Shown here piece after piece: positions 1,835-44,818 of a stretch of 64,000 nucleotides of DNA. Made by a program: the position numbers and the translations under genes. This DNA comes from Tetraselmis striata. Taxonomy: Eukaryota > Chlorophyta > Chlorodendrophyceae > Chlorodendrales > Chlorodendraceae. Every line of letters begins with the position of its first letter. Position 1 is the first letter of the stretch. The DNA lies in NCBI GenBank assembly GCA_006384855.1, contig VCJN01002700.1:1-64000 (forward strand). The letters are read 5' to 3'. A model generated the notes under the pieces. The model saw only the letters and a program-made list of their open reading frames with translations, made no database searches and had not been told where the DNA came from.

Positions 1835-4800
1835 ATGGCGGCACCGTCAGACGTTCTCGGTCTTTCGCGCAGCAAGCCTCCAGTAGCGGAGCTGCCGTAC
1901 CTGAAGCCGGCGCATCAGCAGCTGAAGGCTACGCCACGCTACGAACACGTCCGCATACCGGTGGACGCCGCTCTAGTGACCGAGTTGAAGGTGCGGGCGA
2001 TATCCCTACGGCTGTAGCTCAATTCCACATCGTCACCCGCCTATTTCGCAAATCACACGGGCTCGTCCGGACCCTGCCACAGAGAAATTGCTCAACATTT
2101 TGTTCATTTTTTAATTGATACGCAATAATAGCACTTCGCCGAACTTGCCTGAAATTTGCCTCTGCTCTTCATAATCTCGCTGGCTTCGAAGATCAAATAG
2201 TCGCTGTAACCATAGTATACTGTATTCCTACACAGTCTACGCAGTCTGCTGATTGCATGCTGAGGTGGTCTTCCGATCCATTCCGTTCAACGACGCCAAC
2301 GTCTTTGGAAGCAGATGCGACGAGTGAAGCGACGTCGAAAGCATTTATTTTTAATCACGCCGCTACGGGCTATCTCGCTCGGAATAGACGTTCAGCATTA
2401 CGACCGAGGCTACTCGTGTCCGGCGACGTGTGAATTCCATCACTACAGGACCGCGACGTTTTGCGACGATACACAATGTCCCCGTAACTGAAGTAGCCGC
2501 CCTCCGTCAGACTGCGCTATTCGGATTTGGCATCGCAATCACTTGGCTCGTCCAAGCTTTAATGCACTTTTGCCAGTCGCGTCGTCTCTCAAGTGTCGAG
2601 TCTCTATTGCACGAAGTTTTGTTTTTTTGCCAGTCAGTAGCAGCAAGCAGCACATGAATTGATAGTAAGATGCCACTGCAGTCCATAGCGACGATTGTTT
2701 ATTCATCTGAGCTCTATCTAGCCTGTCGCCGAGTTTAGTCGCAAACGTATGAGGAGTGTGTGCATCGAGTGCCTATTGATACAGTTCGGTCGTCGGTCGA
2801 GTGCCGGCGGCGTACCTCGTCCTCCTGTATGAGCAATCAGGTGTCAGCCGACGGCTGGCCGAGACCATCTATTTGCATGGATACGGGGAACGCGATACGG
2901 CCAGGTCGAACCATTTGATCGACAACCGGCCGACTACCAACTGCACCTTGTTTTTCCCATATCCGCCATCGCAGGGCCGTTGCAAGAAGGCGGGAGCGGG
3001 TTCGGAGGCAGCCTTCCTCGCCGCATTGCAGAGCTATGTCTTCCGCGTCACGGGCGTCGCCGATCTGTTATTCCTTCACGTGTCGGCTACTGCTGAGGCA
3101 GACATCCTGCGCGTGGTGGTGTCCCCTGACGATAGCCTGTCAGGTAAAACGCTGTGGCAACTCCGGCATTGCGTAGTCCGCGGCCTTCCTCGGTTACTTG
3201 CTTGTTCGATTTGATAATTGCCGCTATTAAACTATCGACAGTCTTCTGATACTGTGAAACTGCTAGATCACTTCGAGATAATGCTATATTATCAAACCGT
3301 AATTACTGCGACATTACTACAATCTCAATTCAGATAAAGAAATCTTACCACGTGTCGTTCGTTGGTTTCCGGGCAGTCTTGGCACGTGACACTGTTCCGA
3401 AAATATCAGGTAGTACCCTGAGGGTAGTCGAATGGAGTATCACAGCTTCATTAATTTCTTCAAAGTCATGTACTATTCTCCTGCAACATGGCTTCTGCCT
3501 GTGAATCTCGGTGCTCCGAAATGCGGTGAGGAATTACTCGAGACTGCATGATACTGTTGCTAATCACGCAGTAATTATCATTGACCGTTGCGTTAGTGCG
3601 ACTCGTAGGACCATGTAGTACCACATTTTTTGAAAGAAACGGATGTTACAAAAATGATGTGCTGTCCTACATGCTCTGATGTGAGGGAGTAGGTAAACTT
3701 TCCTTGATGGGGCTGTACCGTAGGTGACGACTGAGTGTAAATAGCTGCAAATAGTGCATGAAGCAAACCTTGCTGGCCCTGGTTTTGCCCGGTTCTGTCC
3801 TGCAGACGACGCTGGCTGCCCAAAGCCACAGCCCCTGTCAGCTCAGGGTACCTGCCGGCTGGACATGCGGGCTGATGAGGCAGCCCAGCCATGACTGTGA
3901 GGTAGCCCTGTAGCGCAGGTAGAGATGACAGTTTCAGTAGTTCTCCCGCCTTCTCTGCCGGCATATTCGACATGCTTCTGAATCTCATTTGTTCGTCGCA
4001 TGTTGCTGGTTTTGGTACCTATTGCGGCACGAAATTATGGTCTTTGGTACGTAGCTCGCTGTGCGGAAACAACACGCGACCCGGTCAATGGATGGATATA
4101 AACTTGGTGCGAAACTATGCCTAATCATAAGAGCAGAGTGCGAAGTAGGATTTAGTGAGGGACTCGCATGCAGACCCCCTCTTACCTCAGCTGCCTGGAT
4201 GGACCGAGCAACTGTGTTAAATGTTGTCTCGAGGTGCCGAAGGGAAGTGATGCAGTATTCACACAATGATGCCGATGTTTCGTAGTACCAAAATGTCGTT
4301 TGCGCGATCTTTTGCGCGGGTGGGGATGTGCGGGTGGCAGTGTGAACTGTTGTGCGAGTCTCACCCGTATCAATTCCAAGTGGCGTGTCTCCCTTCAGCA
4401 CAAGTATCGGTGCCAAGTGTCTGGTGGTCGGACTGATGTAGCCCCCTCCGGAAATGATGCACCGCTGGAATGCAGATGTTCTCGATGCAGCTGCCCAGGC
4501 GCTGTCAACCGTGCGCCAGAAGCGCGACCAGCACAGCCTTGCGGATTCCGTGGCTGCCCTTGAGGCCGCCCAGGTGGAGGCTCCTTCCGCTGTCGTCTCC
4601 TTCTCACCCAACAAGGATGCTGCCATCAAGGCGGCCTCAGCTCTGCCCTCCAAGAGGTGCGCTGGAATGCTGGTGGTATATGGCGCCGACAGGCGTCAAG
4701 GACTACTCCTACATTTCCTCGTGATTAGCCCACACTGAGGCGTCCTCCGCTTGTGCTGTCCCGGCAGGTACGGTTGGTGCTTGAACGTCGACCTGGACGC

Positions 4801-4948
4801 GAAGGAAGTCGGCCTGTCATATGACGCCAATCGCTACTTTCACGAATTCTCCTCCACTCCCGAGGCGGTTGCCAACCATCTGCACCGCATCCTGGACCTC
4901 ATTTGCCACGCGCCGCACGAGACCCTCATGCGTACGGACATCCTGCAG
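1835..4948 (+). other. C-terminal half of an NRPS condensation domain (exons 1-4)
   Basis: Exon 1 starts in the linker between condensation half-domains (ELPYLKP...), exon 2 carries [16 protein letters not shown], the counterpart of the usual LLAAFxxLLxRxTGQ segment, and exons 3-4 give the C-terminal strands up to RTDILQ, which abuts the usual pre-adenylation linker ([13 protein letters not shown]). The N-terminal half, which holds the HHxxxDG active site in this family, is not seen. Either it is encoded in undetected upstream exons or the domain is truncated and inactive. Individual exons are short and diverged, so their boundaries are less certain than those downstream. Confidence 0.6.
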
Positions 4949-7598
4949 GTGCGCGGCTGCACCCCTTTGACATGACACTATGGTTTTCTGGATTCCATGC
5001 CAATCACCCCTTGATTCGCCCATGGCCACCTTCTCGCGCTGACCTCTCCTGATGTCCGTGTCCCTGGCAGGCGAAGGAGCGGCACCAGCTGCTAGAGGAG
5101 TGGAACGAGACGGATGCGGCGTACCCCAATGCCACCATTCACGAGCTGGTGGAGCGCTCCGCGCGCCTGCACCCCGCCAAGACCGCGATCATCTTTGAGG
5201 ACAAACCGCAGAGTTACAGTGAGCTCGACACCGCCGCAAACAAGCTGGCCCACTACCTGGTGCAGGCGGGCGTGGCGCGTGGCGCACGCGTGGGGGTGTA
5301 CCTCCACCGCAGCACAGAGCTGCTGGTCGCGCTTGTGGCGGTGCTCAAGGCCGGCGCCGTATACGTGCCGCTGGACCCGCTGTACCCCAAGGACCGCGTT
5401 GCGGTCATGCTGCAGGACTCCAAGGCCGCGGCAGTGGTGACAGACGCTAACCTGGCTGACGGCCTCACTGGCGTCCTGCCATCCTGCACCAAGGTGCGCC
5501 ACGGAATGTCTCCATTCCCCCCGATGTTTTTCACTGACTTGCCTGCGCTCCTGGCGGTGCTTGTTGCGGCATGTCATTGCAACTGGGTGCTGACGTAACA
5601 TACCTTGACATACCTTGTCACAACATACCTTGTGTTGTAAGCCTGCGATTGGGCTCACTGGTAACCCTCTAGCGTTTGCTATACTTTTGCTGTAGTGTTG
5701 TCAACATTCCACCCAATGTCGCGCTTCTATTTGCCAAAGTTCTTATCGCAGCTTCACCATCCGTCCGGGAATCGTCTCAACACTTAATATCATTCGCAAG
5801 TTCGTAGCCACCACTGATTATTTGTAGTTCCTCAAGTTTGATAAGACAACTCAGCAGTCTATGAGGATGGAAGTTTGGCAAATATAAATAGAATAGGTTT
5901 TTTTAGATCACACTGGAATAGGATTACATTAGTGAATGTATTGTTGGCTTTCTCTCTCTGTATAGTTTGGATGATTTGAAACAATCTGATGGATACATCT
6001 CAGTAATACATGAATGTGTAATGATGCACAATGATAAGACAACATCAATCATACGGGCGCCGTAAAACTTTAAAGCGGATACAATGCGTATATACACTGG
6101 CAAGGCTCATGTAGTGTTAAGGATTTCTTTTTTGCTGAGGATTGCATGCATGAATGAATACATAATCCTTAAAATTTTAAGCAGTCTATTAAAATGGAAC
6201 TTAAGCAGGAATAACAATATGCGGCCATCCTTGTTTGCTAGCTGCCATTCTGTCCCAGCTCATATAGCCCTTTGATCGTGCCCCCCTTTTGGCTTGGCTG
6301 CCGGCAGGTGGTTGCAATGGATGCGTCAGCGTCTGCCATTGCCGCCATGCCCGCCGTAAAGCCGCCCTCCGCAGCAGCCGCCTCCCCGAAGGATCTGGCC
6401 TACACCATCTTCACCTCCGGCTCAACGGGGCGACCGAAGGGCGTGTCCATCACGCACGCCTCTCTGGTCAACCTGCTGCACCACTTTCACCGCCAGCTGA
6501 ACGTCAGCGCCAAGGACGTCCTGGTGGCCATCACCACGGTCTGCTTCGACATCGCGGGGCTGGAGCTGTTCATGCCACTCAAGGCAGGCGCCACGCTGGT
6601 GATGGCCTCACGCGACCAGGCGGCAGATGCCAACTTGCTGGCGGACCTGCTGGATGCCAGCGGCGCCACGCTCATGCAGGCGACGCCTGCCACGTGGCGC
6701 AACCTCATCGCGGCCGGGTGGCCGGGGAAGCCCCACAGCCTGCGCGGCCTCTGCGGCGGAGAGGCGCTCCCGATCGACCTCGTGCGTGGCCTGCTGCCGC
6801 AGCGCCTGAAGGAGCTGTGGAACGTGTACGGGCCCACAGAGACCACAGTGTGGTCCACCGCCGCGTGCCTCAAGCATGGCACGGAGACCGTCCACATCGG
6901 CACGCCCATCGCAAACACGCAGGTGTACGTGCTGGACGCCAACCTCAATCCGCTACCCGTCGGCATCCCCGGGGAGCTGTACATCGCCGGTGACGGCGTG
7001 TCCCCCGGATACCTGGAGCGTCCGGACCTCACCGCCGAGGTGAGCTGCTCTGCCGACACGCCATGCGCACCGGCAATGCCAAAAGTGAAGCTCACCCTCA
7101 GTGGCCTTGCCATTGCTTCTTGGCAGAGGGATGCTAGTTCTCTGCTTACTCCCGCGAGAGAGCAGTACATTTATTTGAATCTTCACCATTATTCTATTAA
7201 CGTGTCGGAGGCAAAAAATTACATGGTGGTGCCTGGTGACTGGTCGTGTTCTGCTTTGGTGGCTTGTTCATGTTTAAACTGCAATTAACTGTAGTTGAAA
7301 GGACCGCAATATTACCATGCAGAATCTGTGACTATGGCACAGATATACCCAGCTATTTTGATGATTCGTGAACCCAATGAAACATTATAGGATGCCTCAA
7401 TGACTGCAGGTCTCCACTGCGAGCTGACCTCCCTCCCTGTCCCACTTTTCCCCTTGGCATGTGACGCAGAGATTTGTGGCCAACCCATTCAAGAACAGCG
7501 GGCGCATGTACCGCACTGGCGACTTGTGCCGCTGGCGCAGCGACGGCATCCTCGAGTGCCTCGGCCGGCTGGACCACCAAGTCAAGGTCCGCGGCTTC

Positions 7599-7631
<33 letters not shown>

Positions 7632-10600
7632 GGCACGCACCCGCGCGTTGCGCACGTGGTTGTGGAGGCGCGGAACGTGGGCGCCTCGACGGAGGGCGAG
7701 AAGCGGCTCGTGGCGTATGTGGTGCCCAATGCGGCAGACTCAGACGACGGCAGTGCGGGCGATATGGACCCTGCGGAGGAGGAGAAGAAGCAGCAGGAGG
7801 AGGAGGAGGAGATCGACAATGAGTCGCCGTTTGCGAAGGTGTGTTTCGCTATTACTCTCCTGGCATGGGAGCCCGAGGTCGCGTCATGCGCTCTGCACGC
7901 GTATGTGCATGTTGGCGTGGCCTCACGCGCTGATTTTGTCGCTGCCACTGCGTGCGCACCCCCTCGGCCGCTCCCCCTCCAGCCGGTGGCCTCCTCGGCG
8001 CAGGACCTGGATGAGGTGGCCAAGTGGGGCGCCATCTATGAGGAGGCATACGCCAGCCAGAACGCCGTGAACGAGGACCCCACGCTCAACTTCAGCGGCT
8101 ACGACAACAGCTACACGCCGCGCGTGCCGCACCGCGCGGAGGTGGTGCGCGAGTGGGTGGAGACCACGTGCGCGCGACTGGCCGCCCTCGCGCCGCGCCG
8201 CGCGCTGGAGATGGGCGCGGGCAACGGCATGATGCTGCTGCGCACCGCGCGGCTGCCGGCCTGCGAGCGCTACATCGGTTGCGACCTCAGCGCCCACAGC
8301 GTGAACTATGTGGAGCAGGTGCGCCCTAAACCATTCGCAGGGCATCCCGCGCCACTTCCAATACTGGGTGACCTGTTATGATGAATATTGGTGAATTAAC
8401 CGGGACGGCTGACCAACATAGCAGCGGTGGTCATGACATGACATGGGACATGTGCCACTGCCGACAATTGTTATCGCCAACAATAGTGATGCGCGCTACC
8501 GGTCTGCTGACGGGTGCTGACTGGCGCTGTGTGTGCCGCCGCTGCTCAGGTGCTCAAGCAACCCAACTTCGCGGACATCGCCCCCAAGGTGGCGCTCTTT
8601 ACGGCGGGTGCGCATGAGAGCGGCCGCTTTGCGGCCGAGCGCCTGGACACCGTCATCTGCAACGGCGTCAGCATGTACTTCCCCTCCGCGGCGTACCTGC
8701 TAGAGGTGGTGTCCAGCGCGCTGGCGGCGCTGCAGCCCGGTGGCACCTTCTTCCTCGGCGACGTGCGCAACGCATGCCTGCTGCAGCACTTCCACGCCAG
8801 CGTCGCGTACTTCCAGGCCAAGTCCGCCGGCGAGCCCGGCCGCCCTGCGGTGGCGCTGTCCTCTGCGGTGGAGAAGGCCATCCGCTTCGAGAAGGAGCTG
8901 CTGGTAGACCCCGCGCTCTTCCTCGCGCTGCCGCAGCTGCTCCCCGGCCTGGACAGCGTGCGCCTTGACATGAAGCGCGGCTGGTTCCATTCCGAGTTCT
9001 CCTGCTTCCGCTACGACGTCACCTTTGTCAAGGCCGGCGGCCGCCCCAGTGGCGCACCGGCCCCCGCAAGCTACGACCTTCAGCCCTTCACTGGGCTCGA
9101 CGCGCTGCGCGCACAGCTGTCCGCCGGGCCGCCGGTCCTCGCGGTTGCCGACATGCTGGATGCGCGTGTGGCGTCGGACGAGGTAGTGGCCGGGCTGCTG
9201 CTCGACCCGCTGGCTCGCCCCGCCACGGTGGGGGAGCTCATCGCGGCGGTGGGTGAGGTGGAGGCCGCCCTGGAGCCCACCGACCCCGAGGCCGTGTACA
9301 GCCTGGGCGAGGAGCTGGGCTACGAGGTGCAGCTGATCTGGCAGCCGGGGAACCCGACGCGCTTCGACGCGCTGTTTGTGGCTGCCGGCGCACCGGCCGG
9401 CGCCTACCTCCCCCTGGCCATGGTCACCTACGCGGCCGCGGGTGCGGTGCCGGCGGCAGCGCCTGCCACACCCGGTTTCTGGGAGGCCTTCACCAACAAG
9501 AGCGGCAACTACGCGCCACAGGGCCGCCGCGACGTTCTGTCGGCGGCCGACGTCGCCAGCGTGCGCACCCTCGCGCGCCGCACGCTGCCAGAGTACATGG
9601 TGCCCTCCGTGTACGTCAGCCTCGCGGCGCTGCCCAAGACGGACAACGGCAAGGTGGACCGCAAGCAGCTGCCGGAGCCGACGCCTGCGGACCTCGAGGC
9701 CAGCGGGCAGCGTGACTCCCCGTTCGAGGCGCCGGCTGGCAGGATGGAGGAGGTGCGCGCTGGAGCGCCCCCCCTTTTCCCCTTCCTCGCCATGTCATGT
9801 GCCCTCACCCTTCAAAACCAGCGTTACCTCTCTGTATCAGGCAGCGATGTGGCGCTGACCTGTGAGGAGATAAATCTCCAACCCTCTCAACCTTACCTGT
9901 ACCCAAGACCTGGTTTATGCCGCCGCTGACCATGTGCTGTGGGCCGCGCACCAGGAGCTGGCGGCGATGTGGTCGGAGCTGCTGATGACGCCGGAGATCT
10001 CAGCCGCAGACTGCTTCTTCCGCCTCGGCGGCCACTCCCTGCTGGCGATGCAGCTGGTGCACCGCGTGAAGGAGCTGACGGGCGGGGTGCAGCTGCGCCT
10101 CGCGGACGTGGTGGAGCACAGCGTGCTGCGCGACCTCGCGGCGCACGTGGAGCGCCACGTCGCCCTCTCGCGCTCGCCGTCTGCGATGAGCGTCGGCCTG
10201 CCCGCCTCCGCCGCCGCCTCGGACCTCCGCATCGTGAGCACCGACGAGATGCCGTTTGACGTGGACGAGGTGAGGCGCGATGATCCTGGAGTAGCTCCGC
10301 TGTGACCTAACAGTCATCTGCTTGCACAGCGATAGTAAGTAACAAGCACTGCGGCCACTCGTCTTAAACCTTTATGATAATGACCGAGTTCCCCCCCCCC
10401 CCCCACACACAACAACCACAGGTGCCCCACACCTGGATCCCCATGAGCGACGGCACCAAGCTGGCGGCGCGGGTGTGGCTGCCCGTCGTGCGCGGCGGCG
10501 GCCGGCAGCACCGGGGCCCCGTGGCGGTGGAGGTGCTGCCGTACCGCAAGGGCGACGGCAGCGCGGAGGTGGACGCGCTCGTGTGGCCCTACCTCGCCGG

Positions 10601-12983
10601 CCACGGCGTCGCGGGCGTGCGCGTGGACTGCCGCGGCTCCGGCGACAGCGGCGGCCTCTTTGACGACGAATACAGCGCCTTGCAGCAGTCCGATGCGCGC
10701 ACGGTGGTGGAGTGGGCGGCTGCGCAGTCGTGGAGCAGCGGCCACGTGCTCGCGATGGGCTGCTCCTGGGGCGGCATCACCGCGCTGCAGGTGCGCCCTA
10801 CCCGGGCCGCTGCCTGCATGGCTCGTCAACTTAAAAGCGGAATTCAGAAATTAGGGTCTGTAGGATTTTCAAACGGCCATCAGAGGGTCGCTGCGGAGGG
10901 CTCTACTGCCTCCTGACTGGTGTTTAGGGTTTAGGGAAGGGTGGGCAATGGAGCTGTGACGCTGGCAATTGTGACGTGGGTCATCCTGCAGGTGGCGGCC
11001 GCGGGGCATCCCTCGCTGGTGGGCGCCGTGGCAGTGTGCGCCACCGATGCGCGGTACGAGGACGACATGCACTACCAGGGCGGCTGCCTGCTGTCCGAGA
11101 ACCTGTCCTGGGGCTCCTGGCTCATGCACGTGCTCAGCCAGCCGCCGGACCCAACCGCGCTGGGATCCGCCGCACAGCCCGGCGCCTGGCGCGAGCAGTG
11201 GCTGGCGCGCCTGTCGGCGCTGGAGCCGCTGGCGGCCAAGTGGATGCGCCACCCCTCGCGTGACGACCCGTACTGGGCGGTCGGCAGCGCGCGCCCGCAC
11301 GCGCGCGACATCCGCGTCCCGCTGCTCCTGCTGGGCGGCACCCACGCGGGCGGCTACATCAATTCGGTCGCCGCGCTGGCGGCGGAGGGCGCCACGTCGG
11401 CGCCGGTCACCGCGCTCGTGGGCCCGTGGAGCCACAACTACCCGCACATCAGCCCAAACGGCCCCCAGGTGCGGCGCCCGCACCTACCCACGGTCGTGTT
11501 TTGGGGAGTTTATGGGCGCCGCAGTCTTCTACGCAATGTTGTTCTATGCAACATAGTTACATAGCTTAAGCAGTTACTACTATTATTATTAACACAGTGT
11601 TAGCAATTTATTATTGTTGTTATGATCCGCCGGGTGATGGTGCCCTCCCCCTGACGTGATGGTGGGCCGTGTGCAACCCGCGCCTTTCCGCAGGTGGGCT
11701 TCCTGCAGCTGCTGCTGCGCTGGCTGTCGGAGCAGCTGCCCTCTCCCGACCTCATCCGGCAGCCGCCCACCGAGTCCGCCCCGCCGCCGGCGCGCTTCAC
11801 CGCCTTCGTGGCGCGCCCGCCTTCGCGGCAGCCGCCCACCGGCGAGCCCAGCGCGGCGGCGGAGGGCGAGTGGCTGGCGGCCGGCAGCCTGGAGGAGCTG
11901 GCGGCGCTGGCGCCAGCGGCGCGCCTGTCGCTGCTGCCGGGCGGCCGCCTCGGCGACCCGGGTACCGACCACGACACAGCCATCCAGGACTCTGGCACGG
12001 TGGCCGTCCCCGGCTCGTGCGCTGAGGCCGCCGCGGCGCTGGCGGCGGGCGAGGACGACCCTGCCACCCTGAACCCCGCGGGGCTGGCCGCCGGCGCATG
12101 GTTCACCTTCGGCGTCGGCCCCGACCTCCCGCTGGAGCAGACCGCCGATGACAGTGCATCCGCGCTGTGGGACAGCGCCCCGCTGCCGGGCGCCGCGCTG
12201 CTGCTGGGCACCCCCGTCGCGCGCCTCGCGCTGGCCAGCGCCCCGCCCGGCGCCCAGCTGGCGGTGCGCCTCTGCGCGGTGTCGCCCTACGGCGTGTCCA
12301 CCCGCCTCGCGTTCGGCCTCGCGAAGGTCGAGGCGGCGGCGGAGGTGGTGGAGGTCAGCCTGGGCTGGACGGCGGCCAAGGTGCCGGCACGCTTCAGCCT
12401 GCGCCTCGCGGTCAGCGCCGGCTGCTGGCCCATGTTGGCGGCGCCGGGGCCCGCCGCCCGCCCCTCCATCCGCCTGGCCGGCTCCAGCCTGGAGCTGCCG
12501 ATGGGCGACGCAGGAGGCGAGCGCCTGGAGGCCGCGCGCGCCGCGGTGGCACTCCCGCCCGCCGTCCACCTGCCCGCGCCGCTCCTCACCACGGCGCTGC
12601 GCCCCGGCGCTGCCAGCCGCACCGTGGCGCTGGACCGCGTCGGCCGCGCCCTCACCGTGCGCCGCCTCGACGACCGCGGGCGCCGCCGCCTAGAGTCGGC
12701 CGGCGGCCTGCAGGTGGAGAGCGGCCAGGAGGAGACCTACGAGCTTGGCGCCAGCCTGGCTGGCGCCCCGCGGTCCCGCCACGCTGTGACGCACCGCACC
12801 AAGCTCAGCCGCCCCGCAGCCGGCGGTGGCGACGACGCCCCCTGGGTGGCCGAGACGCGCCTGGCGGCCAGCCTGACCACCTCAGCCAGCGGCGAAGCCA
12901 AGCTGACGACCACCGTGACAGCGCTCGAGGACGGCGTCCCAATCTTCTCCCGCAGCTGGGCCGATGATCTGCTCCTGCGCTGA
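1835..12983 (+). CDS. NRPS with N-methylating glycine module fused to a CocE/S15-type hydrolase (13 exons)
   Basis: Exons read from GT/AG sites and phase: 1835-1990, 2975-3143, 4476-4656, 4768-4948, 5071-5493, 6308-7039, 7470-7838, 8004-8318, 8550-9752, 9955-10269, 10422-10790, 10992-11468, 11694-12983. They sum to 6,180 nt (2,059 aa plus TGA) in one open frame, and phases match at every join, including phase 1 and phase 2 joins. Most donors are GTGCGC/GTGCGG. Domain order: half condensation domain (about 1-229), adenylation core (230-690), N-methyltransferase (745-1015), end of the adenylation domain with its A10 motif (about 1215), carrier domain (1245-1310), then a serine hydrolase and C-terminal beta domain (1349-2059). 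The start is the first ATG in frame after a TAG at 1793. Predicted role: activate glycine, N-methylate it on the carrier, and release or transfer it by the hydrolase. Domain assignment is strong; product and release mechanism are inference. Confidence 0.88.
5494..6307 (+). other. intron 5 of the NRPS gene, AT-rich
   Basis: An 814-base intron (GTGCGCC ... CCGGCAG). The middle (5.65-6.25 kb) is clearly more AT-rich than the flanking exons and holds no coding signal. Confidence 0.75.
7745..9040 (+). other. N-methyltransferase insert of the NRPS
   Basis: After an acidic linker ([13 protein letters not shown]) the protein shows the usual entry of embedded N-methyltransferases ([27 protein letters not shown]), the SAM-binding motif [13 protein letters not shown], then NGVSMYFPS and [14 protein letters not shown], followed by the long helix with FHASVAYF. 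These match the methyltransferases inserted in adenylation domains of cyclosporin-type modules, which methylate the amino nitrogen of the carrier-bound residue. With a glycine pocket the expected intermediate is N-methylglycine (sarcosine). Exon 8 ends inside the fold and exon 9 resumes it in frame. Confidence 0.82.
9955..10269 (+). other. peptidyl carrier (thiolation) domain
   Basis: Exon 10 encodes [18 protein letters not shown], the canonical carrier motif; the serine in GGHSL is the phosphopantetheine attachment site. The domain lies between the adenylation A10 motif and the hydrolase. About 40 residues of low-complexity linker follow, ending in DEMPFDVDE. Confidence 0.9.
10391..10421 (+). 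other. poly-C tract ending in a 3' splice site
   Basis: About 14 consecutive C followed by ACACACAACAACCACAG and then exon 11. The run is the only pyrimidine tract in front of this acceptor, so it must serve as the polypyrimidine tract. It is the clearest example of a feature found in many introns of this window. Confidence 0.7.
10422..12983 (+). other. C-terminal CocE/X-Pro dipeptidyl-peptidase-like hydrolase domain
   Basis: Exons 11-13 encode an alpha/beta hydrolase of the CocE/NonD (peptidase S15) type: [44 protein letters not shown], the nucleophile elbow [17 protein letters not shown], and [10 protein letters not shown] with the catalytic His. About 430 residues of C-terminal sequence with the look of the family's beta-sandwich domain follow. 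The loop that normally holds the catalytic Asp (GGWxDGY in relatives) reads GGTHAGGY, so the acid residue appears to be missing. The domain replaces the thioesterase or reductase usual at the end of an NRPS. It could release the product, act as a cross-linked amidase/esterase, or be a non-catalytic remnant. Confidence 0.82.
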
Positions 12984-14674: not shown

Positions 14675-17600
14675 TTAGCAGGTTGGTCCAAAGCCGCTCC
14701 CTGACGAGCAGCTGGCGCTCATGTCCTTGATGATCTTGAAGCTGTCCACTTCGTCGCCGTCCCCATCAATGCAGTTTGCCTGCAGCTCGTTGCCTGTGAT
14801 AATGATTGTTGTAGTGCACTTTTCGTAGATGGAAACATCATGGGCATCATGGTTGAGGCTGGCCGAGCTCCTCTTGGAGGCGCTGCCCGTCACCACGTGC
14901 ACGGTGCCAGACTCGCCGCATCGCTTCTTGCGGTACACAGTCCCCTTGCCGTCGCCCTCCTGAACGATATGACTGTCTCTCAGCTTGTCGCTCTCCTCGT
15001 AGTGGCCGTTGATCAGGTGCGAGCGTTCGTAGCTGTGCGAGTGCCCCGTGAGGTGCACATCCACGCCGTGCTTGTCCATGATGGGCACCACTTTCTCGCG
15101 CACGTCGATGAGAACCCCTTGGCTGTCCGAGTTGTGGCTGCCACGCGAGTACGGCGGGAAGTGGTTGCCAGCCAGAATCCAGTCGGTCTGTCCGCTGGCG
15201 CGTGCAGCGGCCAAGTCCTCGTCGATCCAGTCGAGCAGGTCGTCGTCCTCCTCCCAGTCCTTGAAGCTCAGGTCCATCATGATGATATGCACACGGCCGT
15301 GCTGGTAACTGTACGACCCCTTGTAGGAGCTGCGCGTGGGGTAGCCGGGCTTGAAGAGCTCAAAGTACGGCCCAGTCTCCTTATCGCCCTTCGCGGTGTA
15401 TGCATCGTGATTGCCAAGGATGGGGTAGAGCCCTACTTTGGCGAACTGGCCGCAGTAGTAGTCGAAAAACTTCTCGCGATACTCGTCGAATGTGCCGGAC
15501 TTGTAAGCATTGTCGCCCAACGCGAAAGTGCCGTCCCAGCGGCCGCCGAAAAAGTCCATTGCCGCATCACGATTGTCAGCCTGCGTTGGGCACATAGAGA
15601 TCAGTGTGGCGAGTGCATTCCATGCGCAGAACAACATTCTGGGGCACAGCATACCCATTCGATACACTGTCTCATTTATAGTCTCGCAGGCACTTCTTTT
15701 ATCACGAGCATTAGCAAAACTACTGGTCGAAGTACTACTCGAGACAGCATCCCAACCAATACCCGTTCTCAGGCTACCTGTACCTGTACCCGTAATACAT
15801 TCACAACGAATAATTGGCAGCGCACCTGGTCACTGCTGGCGACACCAGAGTCTCCGAGCCACCAGCTGCGGAACGTGAGGCCGCACTTGCCGGGCACTGG
15901 CGCCGTGGTGAACTCCAGCGAAAGGCCGCTGCAGCCGGTCTCGGCAGCACGCGCAACGCCGGTCGGTGGACGAGTGTATTCGTCGATCCAGCCGGGGTCG
16001 CCGGGGCGGGTGATCGGCGGCAGTGGCACGGGCTCCTCGCCAGGGCATGCCGCGGGGAGGGTGGCGATCGATTCGACCTCGTCTTCCTCGAATATCTCGT
16101 CGTCGCCTCCATTGGCCCTCTCGCGGTTTTCGAGGTACTCCGCGCGGCAGGCGAAGTCCAGAGGAGGGTCGGCCGCCCCGCCAGACCGGCTGCTCCGCGA
16201 GCCACCGCAATACGATAGCGACTGGTGCGAAGCGCAGTCCCAGGCGTCCTCAAGGTCCGTTGTGAGCACCTTGTACTCGTACGCCGTCTCGGGCGACAGG
16301 CCGACCGCCTGGGCGGCGTGCAGCTCCGTCTCGTCGTCGTCCCAGTCGGCGGACCAGGTTGCCGAGGAGCCGGCAGGGCGCCAGCACAGGCGCGTGGTGG
16401 CCTTGTCGTCGGTCTCCCAGCGCACGGTGGCGCTGGACTCTTCCACGCCCATGACGTACGGCGCGATGGTGAGGCAAACCTCACCGCGCTTGGGATTGGG
16501 GTTTGGCGGGTGCGGGGTTGCGCCGCTGGGGGGCGACACTGGTGGCCCGGCAGCGGGAGTGGGGGCAGGCGTGGGCCTTGCGGTGAAGGGGTCCGGTTGG
16601 GGCTGCTGCTGTGTAGGGCTTGGCGTCAGAGGCTGGCCGTCAGCGCCATAGGGGCACCAACGCCCCTGGCAGAGCGCGGAACAATGCGACTCGCGCGTGC
16701 TGCAGACGGGGCTGACCTGCGTGACGGTGGGGCAGGCAGCGGCATGCGTGCAGAAGCCGGTGGTGGGGCACCATGTCCCCGTGCAGCCCAGGACGCAGGC
16801 GCCCTCGTCGGCATTGCAGCCAAGGCCGCCCTGTGGGAAGCCGCTGGAGCAGCTGCTGTCACTGAGCGAGCAGTAACCGGGCCGCCCGGGTGCGGCTGTG
16901 GGCGCCGGAGCACTGACGGGTCCGCTCTGCCACTCCCATTGCCCCGAGTTGAAGTTGAACACCCATCGTCCAGTTTGAACGGGTGCGGGGGTGGGCGCCG
17001 GAGTGTTGGCAGGCCCGCTCTCCCACACCCAACCAATGCTTGGGTAAAACACCCATTGCCCAGCAGCAGCTCGGCTTGACCCTCCGGAGCGTGACATCTC
17101 GGGCCGCCCCCAATCCTCCAGCCAGGCAGGCAATGGCGCCGAGCTGCCCGATCTGCTGGCGACCCCCTCTGCCGCAAACAGGACATCTGGTGCCGGCATG
17201 CCGCTGGGCTTCACTTCGGCCTTGGCCAGCTCAAGAGGGAGCGCAGCACCGGAGGACAGCCAGCGCTCGGCCTCTTGGCCATCGGACGGGCTGCAGAAGA
17301 AGGAGACGGAGGAGGAAGACGCCACAAACATGACGGCGCCGCCAGGTGTGAAGTCGATTGCCCTGGGCGCTTCCGGCGTGGCCAGCTGAAGCTTTCCCAC
17401 CACCTGCCCGGTGCCGCTGATCTCGTACACGGCTCCGTCGCACGACACGCACAGGGCGAAGAGGGAGCCGCTCTCGGGGTCGAAGTAGATGCTGTCGAAG
17501 CGGACGGTGCGGGCGGCCTCGGTGTCCGACTGCAACGCCAGGGAGGAGGTGCCATCTTGCCGCACCTGGTGCAATAAAACACGGCTTTCAGTACGAATGA

Positions 17601-18841
17601 AAACATATCTAATTAATATACGGATATATCTTCATATTAAATGGTATGTACCGCCGGTGAATACAATGTATATTCCGATATTATCTTTAGTTACATGTTG
17701 CTGCAAATGTCTCTCCCAAAAGTCGTCCGGTTGTCAGCAACTAGCAGGCGCTTGTCGACACGGGTCAAAACAACGGTGGAGGACATTGAGCCCTGACATG
17801 CACATGGTTGTGAAGGGAGGGTCGGCTGATGGGCAGGCTGTTGCTAGTGCGACTGAGCAGCACTATTAGCGAGGACTATTTCCTGGTCACAGGGGCATTT
17901 GTACTCACGTGCCACAGCGGAGTCTGCGCCTCGGGGGAGGGGAACAGGTCGTAAGAGGCGAGAACACTGGCGTGGCCGCGGAGAGCGGTGAAGGCGGTGC
18001 CGCCGTCTGCCAGGCTCGGGAAGCTGCCGACGACGCGGAAGGGCTCGCTGGGTGTCGCGTCCGCGAAGTCCAGAACGCTGAACTGGGGGCCGCTCGAGTT
18101 CCCGCTGGTTGAGTGCGTCACGATCAGCGTGTTGCCGCCGGCCCACGCCACGCCAGCCGGACCTGCGACGGTTTACCACGTTTTTCGTCAGATAACCAGG
18201 AGGTACAGCGGGATGGCGCGGGCAACAAAAGTCATAAATGTTCACGGACCCGACACGACCGACGTGATACTGGGCGGAGATGTGGGGTGGAACCGGTGCG
18301 AGAGGGTGATACGAGGGATGGATGCAAGTTTTTCGTCGCGGGGGGAGACCTCCAGGGAGCCCAGCTTCCACGAAGCTGCTGGCTGGGATGGTCGCCAGAA
18401 GCGCGCCCTGCGAGGCAACGCGGTAAAAACTGCAGTAAAAACGGGCCGCGCCGGCGGAAGCACAGGTACTGCACAAGGTACTGCACTGCCCTGTAGCGGT
18501 GTTGTAGCACCACCATGGCTCGCGTTACCCGCCGCGCCCGCTCGTCCAGGCGCAGCAACCAATACACGCAGCGGCAAAGCGGTGGAGGGAGCAGCATCAA
18601 GTATACTCACCTCCAGGCCGTGCTGGCGGAGGTCGCCTCCGGCTGTCGTCACCCATAGCCCATTGGCAGTGGGGTCAAACGAAAAGTCGAGCAGATCCGG
18701 CGCGCCGGTCAGCTGCACTGTCCCGCACGACGCCCTGGCGCCCAAATCGTCCCACTCCGCCAGCGCGCAGCCGCAGCAGACCAGCAGGGCGAGTACGCTC
18801 GCGGCGGCCCGCCGCTGCACCATGGCAAACTCAGGTTTCAT
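14675..18841 (-). CDS. secreted purple-acid-phosphatase-like metallophosphoesterase, intact copy (5 exons)
   Basis: Exons on the minus strand: 18841-18611, 18407-18350 (a 58-nt micro-exon), 18162-17909, 17565-15826, 15580-14675; together 3,189 nt, 1,062 aa plus TAA, phases matching throughout. N-terminus: signal peptide (AAASVLALLVCCGCALA), then a beta-propeller-like region (DLLDFSFDPTANGLWVTT). Middle: two WVF-x-SGQWEW-type short repeats, a Cys-rich stretch, a Pro-rich linker (TQQQPQPDPFTARPTPAP), and a fibronectin-like domain (SSATVRWETDDKATTRLCW). Catalytic domain: GDSG split by the last intron, ALGDNAY, GNHDAY, AGNHFPPYS, GHSHSYER, the five metal-ligand blocks of purple acid phosphatases. 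Likely extracellular or cell-wall phosphate release. Paralogue at 39,959-44,818 in opposite orientation. Confidence 0.88.
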
Positions 18842-39958: not shown

Positions 39959-42900
39959 ATGTCCCGACTAAGAATGGAGAAGCGATATGTCAGCACCCTC
40001 AGCGCACTTGCCCTCGTGGCATGCTGCGGTTGCGCACTGGCGGAGTGGGACGACTTGGCCGCCCGCAAGTCGTGCGGGGCAGTGCGGCTCGCCACTGGAC
40101 CGACGGACCTGCTTGACTTCTCCTTCGATCCGACCGCCAGCACGTTGTGGATCACCTCGACTGGAGGCGAGCTCCGTCAGTACGACCTGAACGTACGCAG
40201 ACCTGCCTGGACGCTCTCCCCGGGGCCGCCTTGCCATGCTCGTATCTTGTCGCAGCGGCCGCGCGTATGGGACGCGGCCGTAAGAAAAAGTCGGATGCTG
40301 ACTTGGGGTTGTTCGGCGATACGCTCCCCACTTCACAGGGTGAGCTTGTGACAACCATCATGGTCGACCGCTTTGTTGAGGCTGGTTTACCCGGAGGTAC
40401 CAGTCCCTTCCAATGACCCCTGTCTTCGGCCAATGCAGTTTCAGTGCGGCAGGAACGAGAGGTGTTGGAGACTCCTCCGCACAGCACTTCACTACACAAT
40501 CCGTACACTACGGCATGTTTTACCGTACTCAGCAGTATTAACTGTTAAGCTCGTCGCCGTTACTTCCTCGTTTCCTCGTTTTCGACGAATTCTCCCCGAG
40601 TAAGATGGCAAGTACTCATACTTCCTTGCGACGATGTATCGACCAAGAGTCTACAAGGCGTTTCATATCCTGCTTGTGTGCCTTTGCAGTTTGCACTGAC
40701 TTGCTTTGAATCGTAAAACGTCGCAGGCCCGGCGGGCGTGGCGTGGGCCGGCGCCAACACGCTGATCGTGACGCACTCAACCAGCGGCGCCTGGGCCGCC
40801 CCCCAGTTCAGCGTTCTCGACGTCACGGACGCGACACCCAGCGAGCCCTTTCGCGTCATCGGCACCTTCCCGAGCCTGGTCGACGGCAGCACCGCCTTTA
40901 CCCCTCTGCGCGACCACGCCAGTGTTTTCGCCTCATACAGCCTGTTCCCCTCCCCCGGGGCGCAGACTCCGCTGTGGCACGTGAGTACCCTTACAGTTCC
41001 CCCCAACCTTGTTGGATCGCGATCAAGGGCATGTGACATATCGGAGTCCGTCCATCTCTTCTTCCCCCATGTATCGGCCAAGTAGGCTTATTGGCCAATC
41101 TTGGATTCTTGGAAGGTGAAATAATTGCAGCACCGCAAGCTCCGCGCAAATATTTGAAACTAAAACTCTTATCCTTAGTTGGTGTAATGAAGCGCAACTA
41201 AAATTTTTTATGCAGCAATTATAGTCTTTTGCTTTGATATGGTTGAGAGGTCGTATTTTGCTACAATTACGTATGAATACATCCAGAATGATAAGTCTGT
41301 GTAAGCGCTATGCGCTGAGAGGTGATGAGATGCGTTCTTACAAGAAATGTCTAATGATATTAACAATTACTGCTAAGAGGTTTTGGTACGTATGTTTTCA
41401 TGCCCGCTGCAACTTACCCACGTAATGAGGCCTCCGAGCACAGCGCGTTAAACCGTTTCTTGCCTTACTACCTTTCTCATAACAATGCTGCCCTCCAGAT
41501 GCGGCAAGATGGCACCTCCTCCCTGGCGTTGCAGTCGGACACCGAGGCCGCCCGCACCGTCCGCTTCGACAGCATCTACTTCGCCCCCGAGAGCGGCTCC
41601 CTCTTCGCCCTGTGCGTGTCGTGCGACGGAGCCGTGTACGAGATCAGCGGCACCGGGCAGGTGGTGGGAAAGCTCCAGCTGGCCACGCCGGAAGCGCCCA
41701 GGGCGATCGACTTCACGCCTGGCGGCGCCGTCATGTTTGTGGCGTCTTCCTCCTCCGTCTCCTTCTTCTGCAGCCCGTCCGATGGCCAAGAGGCCGAGCG
41801 CTGGCTGTCCTCCGGTGCTGCGCTCCCTCCTGAGCTGGCCAAGGCCGAAGTGAAGCCCAGCGGCATGCCGGCACCAGATGTCCTGTTTGCGGCAGATGGG
41901 GTCGTCAGCAGATCGGGCGGCTCGGCGCCATTGCCTGCCTGGCTGGAGGATTGGGGGCGGCCCGAGATGTCACGCTCCGGAGGGGCAAGCCGAGCTGCTG
42001 CTGGGCAATGGGTGTTTTACCCAAGCATTGGTTGGGTGTGGGAGAGCAGGCCTGCCAACACTCCGGCGCCCACCCCTGCACCCGTTCAAACCGGACGATG
42101 GGTGTTCAACTTCAACTCAGGGCAATGGGAGTGGCAGAGCGGACCGGTCAGTGCTCCGGCGCCCACAGCCGCACCCGGACGGCCTGGCTACTGCTCGCTC
42201 AGTGACAGCAGCTGCTCCAGCGGCTTCCCACAGGGCGGCCTTGGCTGCAATGCCGACGAGGGCGCCTGTGTCCTGGGCTGCACGGGCACCTGGTGCCCCA
42301 CCACCGGCTTCTGCACGCATGCCGCGGCCTGCCCCACCGTCACGCAGATCAGCCCCGTCTGCAGCACGCGCGAGTCGCATTGCTCCGCGCTCTGCCAGGG
42401 GCGTTGGTGCCCTATGGCGCTGACGGCCAGCCACTGACGCCAAGCCCTACACAGCAGCAGCCCCAACCGGACCCCTTCACCGCAAGGCCCACGCCTGCCC
42501 CCACCCCCGCTGCCGGGCCCCCAGTGTCGCCCCCCAGCGGCGCCACCCCGCACCCGCCAAACCCCAACCCCAAGCGCGGCGAGGTGTGCCTCACCATCGC
42601 GCCGTACGTCATGGGCGTGGAAGAGTCCAGCGCCACCGTGCGCTGGGAGACCGACGACAAGGCCACCACGCGCCTGTGCTGGCGCCCTGCCGGCTCCTCG
42701 GCAACCTGGTCCGCCGACTGGGACGACGACGAGACGGAGCTGCACGCCGCCCAGGCGGTCGGCCTGTCGCCCGAGACGGCGTACGAGTACAAGGTGCTCA
42801 CAACGGACCTTGAGGATGCCTGGGACTGCGCTTCGCACCAGTCGCTATCGTATTGCGGTGGCTCGCGGAGCAGCCGGTCTGGCGGGGCGGCCGACCCTCC

Positions 42901-44818
42901 TCTGGACTTTGCCTGCCGCGCGGAGTACCTCGAAAATCGCGAGCAAGCCAACGGAGGCGACGATGAGATATTCGAGGAAGACGAGGTCGAATCGATCGCC
43001 ACCCTCCCCGCGGCATGCCCTGGCGAGGAGCCCGTGCCACTGCCGCCGATCACCCGCCCCGGCGACCCCGGCTGGATCGACGAGTTCGAGCCGCCGTCTA
43101 CAAGCCCATCCCGCCGTGCTGCCGAGACCGGCTGCAGCGACCTTTCGCTGGAGTTCACCACGGCGCCAGTGCCTGGCAAGTGCGGCCTCACGTTCCGCAG
43201 CTGGTGGCTCGGAGACTCTGGTGTCGCCAGCAGTGACCAGGTGCGCTCCCAGCCTGCTGTATCATGCATGCACGAATCCAGCGCATGAGGTTCGAGTTTT
43301 CGGGGACCTCTCTCGAGGGTCACTTCTACGGATTTGTCCAGCACAGTTGGTGATGCGTGTGTTAAGGGTTTTAGTCGCTAGATGCGCGGTGATGCTGTAT
43401 CGTAGTCAGCGGATACTCGTTTATTAATTAACAACAGCGATGAAAGTAGTGCCAGGATAGAACTAAAAGTAAGGTTTGCCCAGGGACATCGGCCGAAGCC
43501 GCCCCAGCATGACCTCTTGCGGCGCCAACTGCAATCGTAGGTCTGGCATGACCCTTATTAATAGTCCATTGCCTCATTCGAACCCCGAAGGGCTAATGCA
43601 TCAACCGGGTACACCCAGGACACGCCGGGCCGATATTCCCGAAATACCTATATCGAACCCGGTACTTCTCGCATACGAGACAACCGCTCAATAATCGAGC
43701 GGACAAGGAATGTACCTTAGTTCGAGGATATCAACACAATATGCGGCAATCCACTCATCAACACCGGCCTGCTTGTAGGCTACAGGTACTCGTACCGGGA
43801 CAGGCGGTATGGCAAAAGGGAACAACGTGCCCCATGATTGTATTATGCGCATCAATTTCACTCGTTACCATGTAAATAAGCGAATCCTGCGTGTTTTTGC
43901 TCACCACTGCAGGCTGGCAATCGTGATGCGGCAATGGACTTTTTCGGCGGCCGCTGGGACGGGACTTTCTTATTGGGCGACAACGCGTACAAGTCCGGCA
44001 CGTTCGGGGAGTATCGGGAGAAGCTGTTCGACTACTATTGCGGGCCATTCGCAAAAGTCGGGCTTAATCCCATCATGGGCAACCATGACGCGTACACTGC
44101 GAAGGGCGATAAGGAGACCGGGCCATACTTTGAGCTCTTCCAGCCCGGCTACCCCACGCGCAGCTCCTACAAGGGGTCGTACAGTTACCAGCACGGCCGT
44201 GTGCATATCATCATGATGGACCTGAGCTTCAAGGACTGGGAGGACGACGACGACCTGCTCGACTGGATTGACGAGGACTTGGCCGCTGCGCGCACCAGCG
44301 GACAGACAGACTGGATTCTGGCTGGCAACCACTTCCCGCCGTACTCGCGCGGCAGCCACAACTCGGACAGCTCTAGCAGGCTTGTGAGGGTGCGCGAAAA
44401 TGTGGTGCCCATCATGGACAAGCACGGCGTGGATGTGCACCTCACGGGGCACTCGCACAGCTACGAACGCTCGCACCTCATCAACGGCCACTACGACGAG
44501 AGCGACAGGCTGAGAGGCAGTCAGATCGTGCAGGAGGGCGACGGCAAGGGGACTGTGTACCGCAAGAAGCGATGCGGCGAGTCTGGCACCGTGCACGTGG
44601 TGACGGGCAGCGCCTCCAAGAGGAGCGGTGGCAGGCATAACCACCCTGCCCATGATGTTTCCATCAACGAAAAGTGCACTACAACCATCATCATCACAGG
44701 CAACGAGCTGCAGGCGAGCTGCATCGACGAGGACGGCGATGCAGTGGACAGCTTCAAGATCATCAAGGACATGAGCGCCAGCTGCTCGTCTGGGAGCGGC
44801 TTTGGACCAACCTGCTAA
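39959..44818 (+). pseudogene. purple-acid-phosphatase-like gene, right copy, with a 1-base frameshift
   Basis: Same five-exon structure as the minus-strand copy: 39959-40192, 40339-40396 (58-nt micro-exon), 40727-40980, 41499-43240, 43913-44818. The start gives MSRLRMEKRYVSTLSALALV and a signal peptide ending CGCALA. Exon 5 is 906 nt in both copies and keeps all catalytic blocks (LGDNAY, GNHDAY, AGNHFPPYS, GHSHSYER). In exon 4 the sequence at 42,408-42,416 reads TGCCCTATG where the other copy has TGCCCCTATG. Loss of one C shifts the frame, giving a stop eight codons later (at about 42,437) before the catalytic domain. The downstream frame stays open to the end of the gene, so the deletion is recent or a sequencing error. 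Confidence 0.82.
43483..43710 (-). mobile_element. tRNA-derived SINE, copy 3, antisense inside a phosphatase intron
   Basis: On the minus strand: GTCCGCTCGATTATTGAGCG, a degraded B box (GGTTCGATATA), the shared body AATATCGGCCCGGCGTGTCC, and the 3' part GGCTTCGGCCGATGTCCCTG. It sits in the last intron (43,241-43,912) of the right phosphatase copy in reverse orientation. The equivalent intron of the left copy (15,581-15,825) is 245 bases and lacks it. Confidence 0.75.

Follow-up and report, generated by a model that had tools for sequence, protein, structure and literature searches.

A single-module NRPS-like gene of Tetraselmis striata in which the carrier domain is fused to a terminal CocE/S15-type domain

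Introduction

Single-module NRPS-like enzymes that dispense with a condensation domain make up the A-T-X class. Also bearing on the protein described here are the alpha-amino-acid ester hydrolases of the S15 family, which can pass aminoacyl groups to amines, and the acyltransferase domains of PKSs, which work with a Ser-His pair and no Asp.

In algae, a survey of 32 species, conducted via KS and condensation domains, reports NRPSs in seven of them and calls them rare, and describes what algal PKSs and NRPSs make as mysterious in almost all cases (PMC4661987); its condensation-domain filter is one by which a condensation-less family would be missed. A second source lists NRPS candidates from Mesostigma, and neither "S15" nor "hydrolase" appears as a term in its main text (PMC10794256); the Mesostigma gene of the family described below may be among these candidates. 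A survey of alpha/beta-hydrolases mentions PF00975 thioesterases that are fused to carriers, and its account of S15 concerns bacteria (PMC11878206). In the literature searched, neither the queries for an NRPS with CocE, S15 or X-Pro dipeptidyl peptidase nor those for NRPSs in these algae returned a description of the architecture reported here.

Here, we analysed a window comprising positions 1 to 64,000 of T. striata contig VCJN01002700.1 (64,000 nucleotides in all) and identified a gene encoding, in order, a probable remnant condensation lobe, an adenylation domain, an inserted methyltransferase, a carrier domain and a CocE/S15 domain.

Results

Gene model and second copy

The gene was rebuilt from splice signals and reading frame as 13 exons at 1835-12983 on the forward strand, encoding 2,066 aa followed by a stop codon; all 12 introns are GT-AG and every exon join is in frame. 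An earlier note on this DNA had described 13 exons in a single frame with phase agreement, which our model reproduces, and a length of 2,059 codons, which it does not: this figure is obtained when exon 8 starts at the in-frame alternative acceptor 8004 (7 aa fewer) in place of 7983.

The same assembly contains a colinear second copy (C1722:92035-104077) that encodes 2,064 aa, with GT and AG kept at 12 of 12 introns (24 splice-site dinucleotides) and zero internal stops. Colinearity starts at window position 210 and holds as far as the stretch compared extends, to about 16.9 kb. The two copies differ at 36 of 2064 aligned residues; their introns bear many indels that are not divisible by three, and the sole exonic length change is one of 6 nt in exon 7. 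Exonic changes comprise 147 synonymous and 37 non-synonymous ones (dN/dS 0.085), with a dN/dS of 0.086 in exons 1-10, before the carrier/S15 junction, and 0.062 in exons 11-13, after it; both sides of the carrier/S15 fusion are under purifying selection. The spliced translation of the second copy is 100% identical to the annotated T. striata protein jgi/Tetstr1 TSEL_024655.t1 (2064 aa), so an independent annotation picked the same exons. The gene is confirmed as real, and the observation lies far beyond chance.

In the simplest reading, the two copies represent two haplotypes. Between them, synonymous divergence amounts to 0.128 for exons 1-10 against 0.042 for exons 11-13, and less than 1% of intron 12 differs; this drop toward the 3' exons possibly reflects gene conversion or recombination between the haplotypes.

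At the 5' end, exon 1 (1835..1990), which carries the start codon, shows 8 differences to the second copy over 156 nt, one of them non-synonymous, and exon 2 (2975..3143) measures 169 nt in both copies. A longer exon 2 at 2785-3143 was rejected, being out of phase with exon 1 and facing two 2-nt gaps of the second copy in 2785-2975; the two indels between the copies within 2785-3143 both lie upstream of 2975. Inside intron 1, about 52 bases at window positions of about 2785-2836 are identical in both copies, with strongly diverged flanks.

Domain architecture

Pfam models matched the window protein, each over its curated cut-off, at aa 257-606 (AMP-binding, E-value 5.5e-88), 812-917 (methyltransferase), 1251-1315 (PP-binding, 42.2 bits versus a cut-off of 20.8), 1365-1628 (Peptidase_S15, 149.2 bits, cut-off 23) and 1765-1885 (PepX_C, 27.4 bits, cut-off 22.5). 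The Pfam scan found no thioesterase, reductase or terminal condensation release domain, and S15/PepX_C stands in that place.

The first 230 aa resemble, by eye, the C-terminal lobe of a condensation domain and are probably a remnant of it; they are encoded by exon 1 (aa 1-52), exon 2, exon 3 (4476..4656) and exon 4 (4768..4948), in which the condensation-like region ends at aa 229. PF00668 gave no match in the window protein at E 0.01; relatives P0017, P0023 and P0024 bear a precomputed PF00668 label. The HHxxxD motif is present in 0 of 29 N-termini (the 28 family members described below and P0036), and since P0011, P0012, P0013, P0036 and P0038 have fewer than 70 residues in this region, its absence carries little weight in those five. 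Of the "one-module NRPS" proposed in the earlier note, the single module therefore stands, and "NRPS-like" is the more exact label for a protein without a recognisable working condensation domain.

As the window starts at contig base 1, the second copy was used to look for a hidden upstream module, and this candidate was rejected, the six-frame search described next having found no further module beside the gene. The module search of the assembly, which was six-frame and intron-blind so that domains split across exons could escape it, scored 82 of 82 carrier candidates and 14 of 86 adenylation candidates; among three of three scored condensation candidates, obtained by the same kind of search, a single match was found, on contig C1539.

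Adenylation domain and predicted substrate

The adenylation domain begins in exon 5 (5071..5493, aa 230-370), its core is encoded by exon 6 (6308..7039), and exon 7 (7470..7838) contains the end of the core (motif A8) and a linker. The core motifs and a readable specificity code are present, with the residues D-I-L-Q-L-G-V-V-W located between aa 451 and 552 in exon 6. The ten code positions, for which we assumed GrsA numbering, were placed by alignment and read DILQLGVVWK in the window protein, in agreement with P0001. This code or DILQLGVIWK, both glycine-type, is found in 26 of 28 family members; the deviating codes are DVLQLCEVYK in P0022 and DILQMGVVWK in P0038, which possibly indicate a changed substrate. 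The closest solved sequences are LgrA chains, with the best match over the second LgrA adenylation domain, which we take to be the glycine module of linear gramicidin. Two sources agree with this assignment: one predicts glycine for DILQLGVI, which matches the product there (PMC5466765), and the other gives DILQLGMIWK for glycine domains (PMC12283262).

Codes vary widely among 92 other modules found via the methyltransferase (six of them unreadable), so the constancy of the family code is no by-product of a common methyltransferase. Some of the modules nearest the family branch are also glycine-type, namely P0055 (DILQLGLIWK), P0014 (DILQVGMIWK) and P0061 (DILQIGLIWK). Judged by its code, the domain is predicted with good confidence to select glycine. 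The earlier note had one amino-acid unit loaded and methylated by the enzyme, without naming a substrate; the code adds glycine as the predicted unit, and N-methylation of it is probable. Homarine was considered as a product because it is named beside betaine in the title of a cited Platymonas paper, and was dropped, as the Asp at the first code position favours an alpha-amino acid.

Inserted methyltransferase and carrier domain

The methyltransferase (aa 812-917) sits between motifs A8 and A10. Exon 8 (7983..8318, or from 8004 with the alternative acceptor) encodes its first part with the SAM-binding motif EMGAGNG from aa 813, and exon 9 (8550..9752) the remainder, together with the C-terminal piece of the adenylation domain and motif A10 (NGKVDRK, aa 1215-1221). 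Over its whole length the methyltransferase aligns with chain 5wmm_A, which is named "NRPS" (1.1e-39) and which we take to be the interrupted adenylation domain of TioS, a backbone N-methylating enzyme. This alignment makes N-methylation the likeliest chemistry, and methylation is probably directed to nitrogen.

The carrier domain occupies exon 10 (9955..10269), with the phosphopantetheine-accepting Ser1278 (codon 10036-10038) in the motif GGHSL, and is followed directly by the S15/CocE domain, which starts in exon 11 (10422..10790). The single fused gene described in the earlier note is thus borne out by an in-frame GT-AG join in both copies and by the recurrence of the fusion in at least 28 proteins.

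S15/CocE domain

The putative nucleophile, Ser1470 (GCSWGG, codon 10764-10766), lies in exon 11; exon 12 (10992..11468) continues the S15 domain with His1626 (11433-11435) and with Ala1597-Gly1598 (11346-11351) at the site of the catalytic Asp in relatives; and exon 13 (11694..12983) encodes PepX_C, a C-terminal region with homology to the stand-alone CocE/NonD proteins of bacteria, and the stop codon. These bacterial S15 proteins, 665-692 aa long, show 31-35% identity to the algal S15 region, and in five of the six compared the bacterial protein is aligned almost from end to end (residues 1-656 of 665 in one example). For a bacterial S15 relative, matches include both cocaine esterase and alpha-amino-acid ester hydrolases. 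Where annotated, bacterial plasmid loci place ABC-transporter genes next to the hydrolase in 4 of 4 cases; seven loci were examined (three of them bearing no annotation) out of 30 listed among 453 matching records.

The algal domains retain the GxSxxG Ser and the His of a GPWxH motif or an equivalent of it. At the canonical Asp position (after strand 7), however, an acid is absent from all 27 members that show this region, which have Ala or Gly there in either register: in a gapless alignment the catalytic Asp of cocaine esterase, presumably Asp259, falls on Ala1597, and in the MAFFT alignment the position falls on the Gly one residue on, with a one-residue insertion before it. In the bacterial relatives, the Asp of GWxD is present in nine of nine read (6 + 3; L024 reads in two frames), and that of the bacterial L019 aligns with the cocaine esterase Asp. 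P0056 has a Glu just before the canonical site, and in P0011, P0056 and P0069 an Asp replaces a nearby Asn; the other 24 members have neither. An acid elsewhere in the domain may substitute for the missing Asp.

The region is an S15/CocE member by descent, for which an S15 hydrolase mechanism is at most putative. The terminal CocE/S15-type domain of the earlier note is upheld, and its designation as a hydrolase cannot be assumed, since the canonical Asp position is without an acid across the family. The persistence of Ser, His and purifying selection gives the domain the look of altered chemistry rather than decay.

Family and distribution

Matches to S15, adenylation and methyltransferase domains occur together in at least 28 distinct proteins, the named ones algal; three protein searches contributed 12, 1 and 15 of them, and the size of 28 is a lower bound, the third search having given an S15 label on 27 of the best 120 of 1148 matches. 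The earlier note held the architecture to be unfamiliar among characterised NRPSs: no NRPS with such an ending was found in the literature searched, and yet this gene is not alone in having the architecture. Precomputed Pfam labels are incomplete, lacking for instance PP-binding in P0012 and P0013 and the methyltransferase in P0056, whose motifs are present in the alignment.

Named members come from green algae and Aureococcus: T. striata, Tetraselmis sp. GSL018, Pyramimonas (MMETSP1081; taxid 36882), Mesostigma viride (Mesvir1), Pycnococcus provasolii and Aureococcus anophagefferens. A further member is a eukprot TRINITY entry, and the remaining ones are environmental sequences. The Pycnococcus provasolii member, P0056, is annotated as "chondramide synthase", a name that its architecture does not support. 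The SAM motif, the carrier Ser and the S15 Ser are each kept in 28 of 28 members; for the S15 His the count is 27 of 27, as P0024 stops short of this residue. Two fused members, P0017 (MMETSP) and P0022 (TRINITY), have entry names that we take to mark transcriptome origin, so that in those two a single transcript covers carrier and S15.

In a quick IQ-TREE analysis of the adenylation-methyltransferase modules, 23 family rows fell on one side of a single branch (SH-aLRT 100) against 35 others; many rows were unlike in composition, and the branching order inside the family is partly unsettled. The 23 rows were drawn from 29 (the 28 members and P0036, with six near-copies left out), and the outgroup comprised the first 35 by id, with length >850, of the 92 other modules, bacterial where named. 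A contig scan for bacterial fused forms, using two short patterns, yielded two relatives, both stand-alone; fused forms in bacteria may have escaped such patterns.

Genomic surroundings

No pathway gene was recognised beside the gene among 20 open frames scanned, of which two scored over cut-off, both as phosphoesterases. These lie in opposite orientation at 14678-17631 (-) and 42206-44815 (+), each with Metallophos over cut-off and a purple acid phosphatase N-domain below it, and 14700-15584 is 91% identical to 43909-44793, forming an inverted duplication.

The alga's own phosphopantetheinyl transferase was not found in the assembly, whose one match lies on the bacterial-looking contig C2280 (L030). 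By eye, this contig and C2392 (L029) look bacterial, with intron-less frames resembling peroxiredoxin, cysteine desulfurase and response regulators; the assembly thus seems to contain contaminants. Contig C1549 (L004-L008, L031) holds a giant PKS-like frame, of either algal or contaminant origin, that runs without interruption for more than 16,000 aa and includes tandem carrier domains by the dozen.

Discussion

Taken together, the domain content makes it fairly probable that the gene encodes a free-standing NRPS-like synthetase of one module, in which glycine is loaded, N-methylated while on the carrier, and released or transferred by the S15 domain. In such an enzyme, the adenylation domain would activate glycine as glycyl-AMP, the glycyl group would be loaded onto the phosphopantetheine of the adjoining carrier, and the inserted methyltransferase would N-methylate the tethered glycine with SAM. 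The S15 Ser could then take over the methylated glycyl group, and a Ser-His machine without the canonical Asp would pass it to an acceptor, either water or a small nucleophile. The precedents of the PKS acyltransferase pair and of aminoacyl transfer by ester hydrolases put hydrolysis and transfer to an acceptor on an equal footing, and we moderately favour release or transfer as the role of the S15 domain. Against the proposed synthetase speak the predictive nature of the specificity code, with its deviations in P0022 and P0038; the missing Asp, which argues against a normal S15 hydrolase and would suit a structural domain; and the surroundings, with the single phosphopantetheinyl transferase match on a bacterial-looking contig and no pathway gene recognised beside the gene.

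With plain hydrolysis by the S15 domain, the enzyme would instead produce free N-methylglycines (sarcosine, dimethylglycine or glycine betaine) in the manner of an assembly line, for use as osmolytes or methyl-group stores. The glycine-type code and the N-methyltransferase type suit this reading, as do the zwitterionic metabolites contained in T. striata according to one report (PMC9695272), but the missing Asp weakens it, and the title of another paper (PMC12650439) names a route by TpGSDMT, a soluble methyltransferase. Also counting against this reading, Mesostigma, which carries the enzyme too, is a freshwater alga, and many NRPS N-methyltransferases methylate once. We regard this route as rather unlikely, and the formation of glycine betaine from glycine, for which the basis is metabolite reports, as speculative.

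The S15 domain might also be inactive or purely structural, with the carrier-bound methylglycine handed to another protein in trans. The loss of the acid at the canonical Asp position, together with the one-residue insertion, in 27 of 27 members would fit such a role, but the conserved Ser and His, the low dN/dS of exons 11-13 and the lone condensation match, on another contig in a search that exon-split domains could escape, speak against it; we judge this explanation unlikely. That two neighbouring genes were misjoined at exons 10-11 is exceedingly improbable given the in-frame GT-AG join in both copies and the recurrence of the fusion in at least 28 proteins, including the two named as transcriptome entries, even though P0036 (1316 aa), which has the adenylation, methyltransferase and carrier domains and is possibly incomplete, does end after the carrier.

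Returning to the synthetase with a releasing or transferring S15 domain, we put forward, tentatively and with more doubt than conviction, that it represents an old algae-wide family in which N-methylated glycine, possibly up to betaine or a sarcosyl conjugate, would be formed on the carrier and released by an Asp-less, S15-derived Ser-His acyltransferase. If true, both the release mechanism and the methylated-glycine route are undescribed in the literature searched. In this single protein the predicted substrate is concrete and the odd release domain is open to testing, and the family adds the conservation of that predicted substrate among members whose named hosts are green algae and Aureococcus.

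Comparison with known systems

Cocaine esterase and the alpha-amino-acid ester hydrolases belong to the same family as the terminal domain, and the Ser and His align with those of cocaine esterase; the algal domain differs in having Ala1597 at the Asp position, and its activity is putative. The bacterial CocE/NonD proteins are homologous in sequence, but they keep the GWxD acid, stand alone and lie beside ABC-transporter genes where annotated, whereas the algal S15 domain has no such acid and is joined to a carrier in one protein. With the interrupted adenylation N-methyltransferase represented by 5wmm_A, the algal protein shares a methyltransferase inserted between A8 and A10 and an alignment across it; in contrast to that system, it has a glycine-type code, is stand-alone and continues with a carrier and S15. 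The A-T-X enzymes, finally, share with it one adenylation domain, one carrier and one terminal domain in the absence of a recognisable working condensation domain; compared with them, the algal protein has an inserted methyltransferase and a probable condensation remnant, and it ends in CocE/S15 rather than in a thioesterase, reductase or amine-selecting domain.
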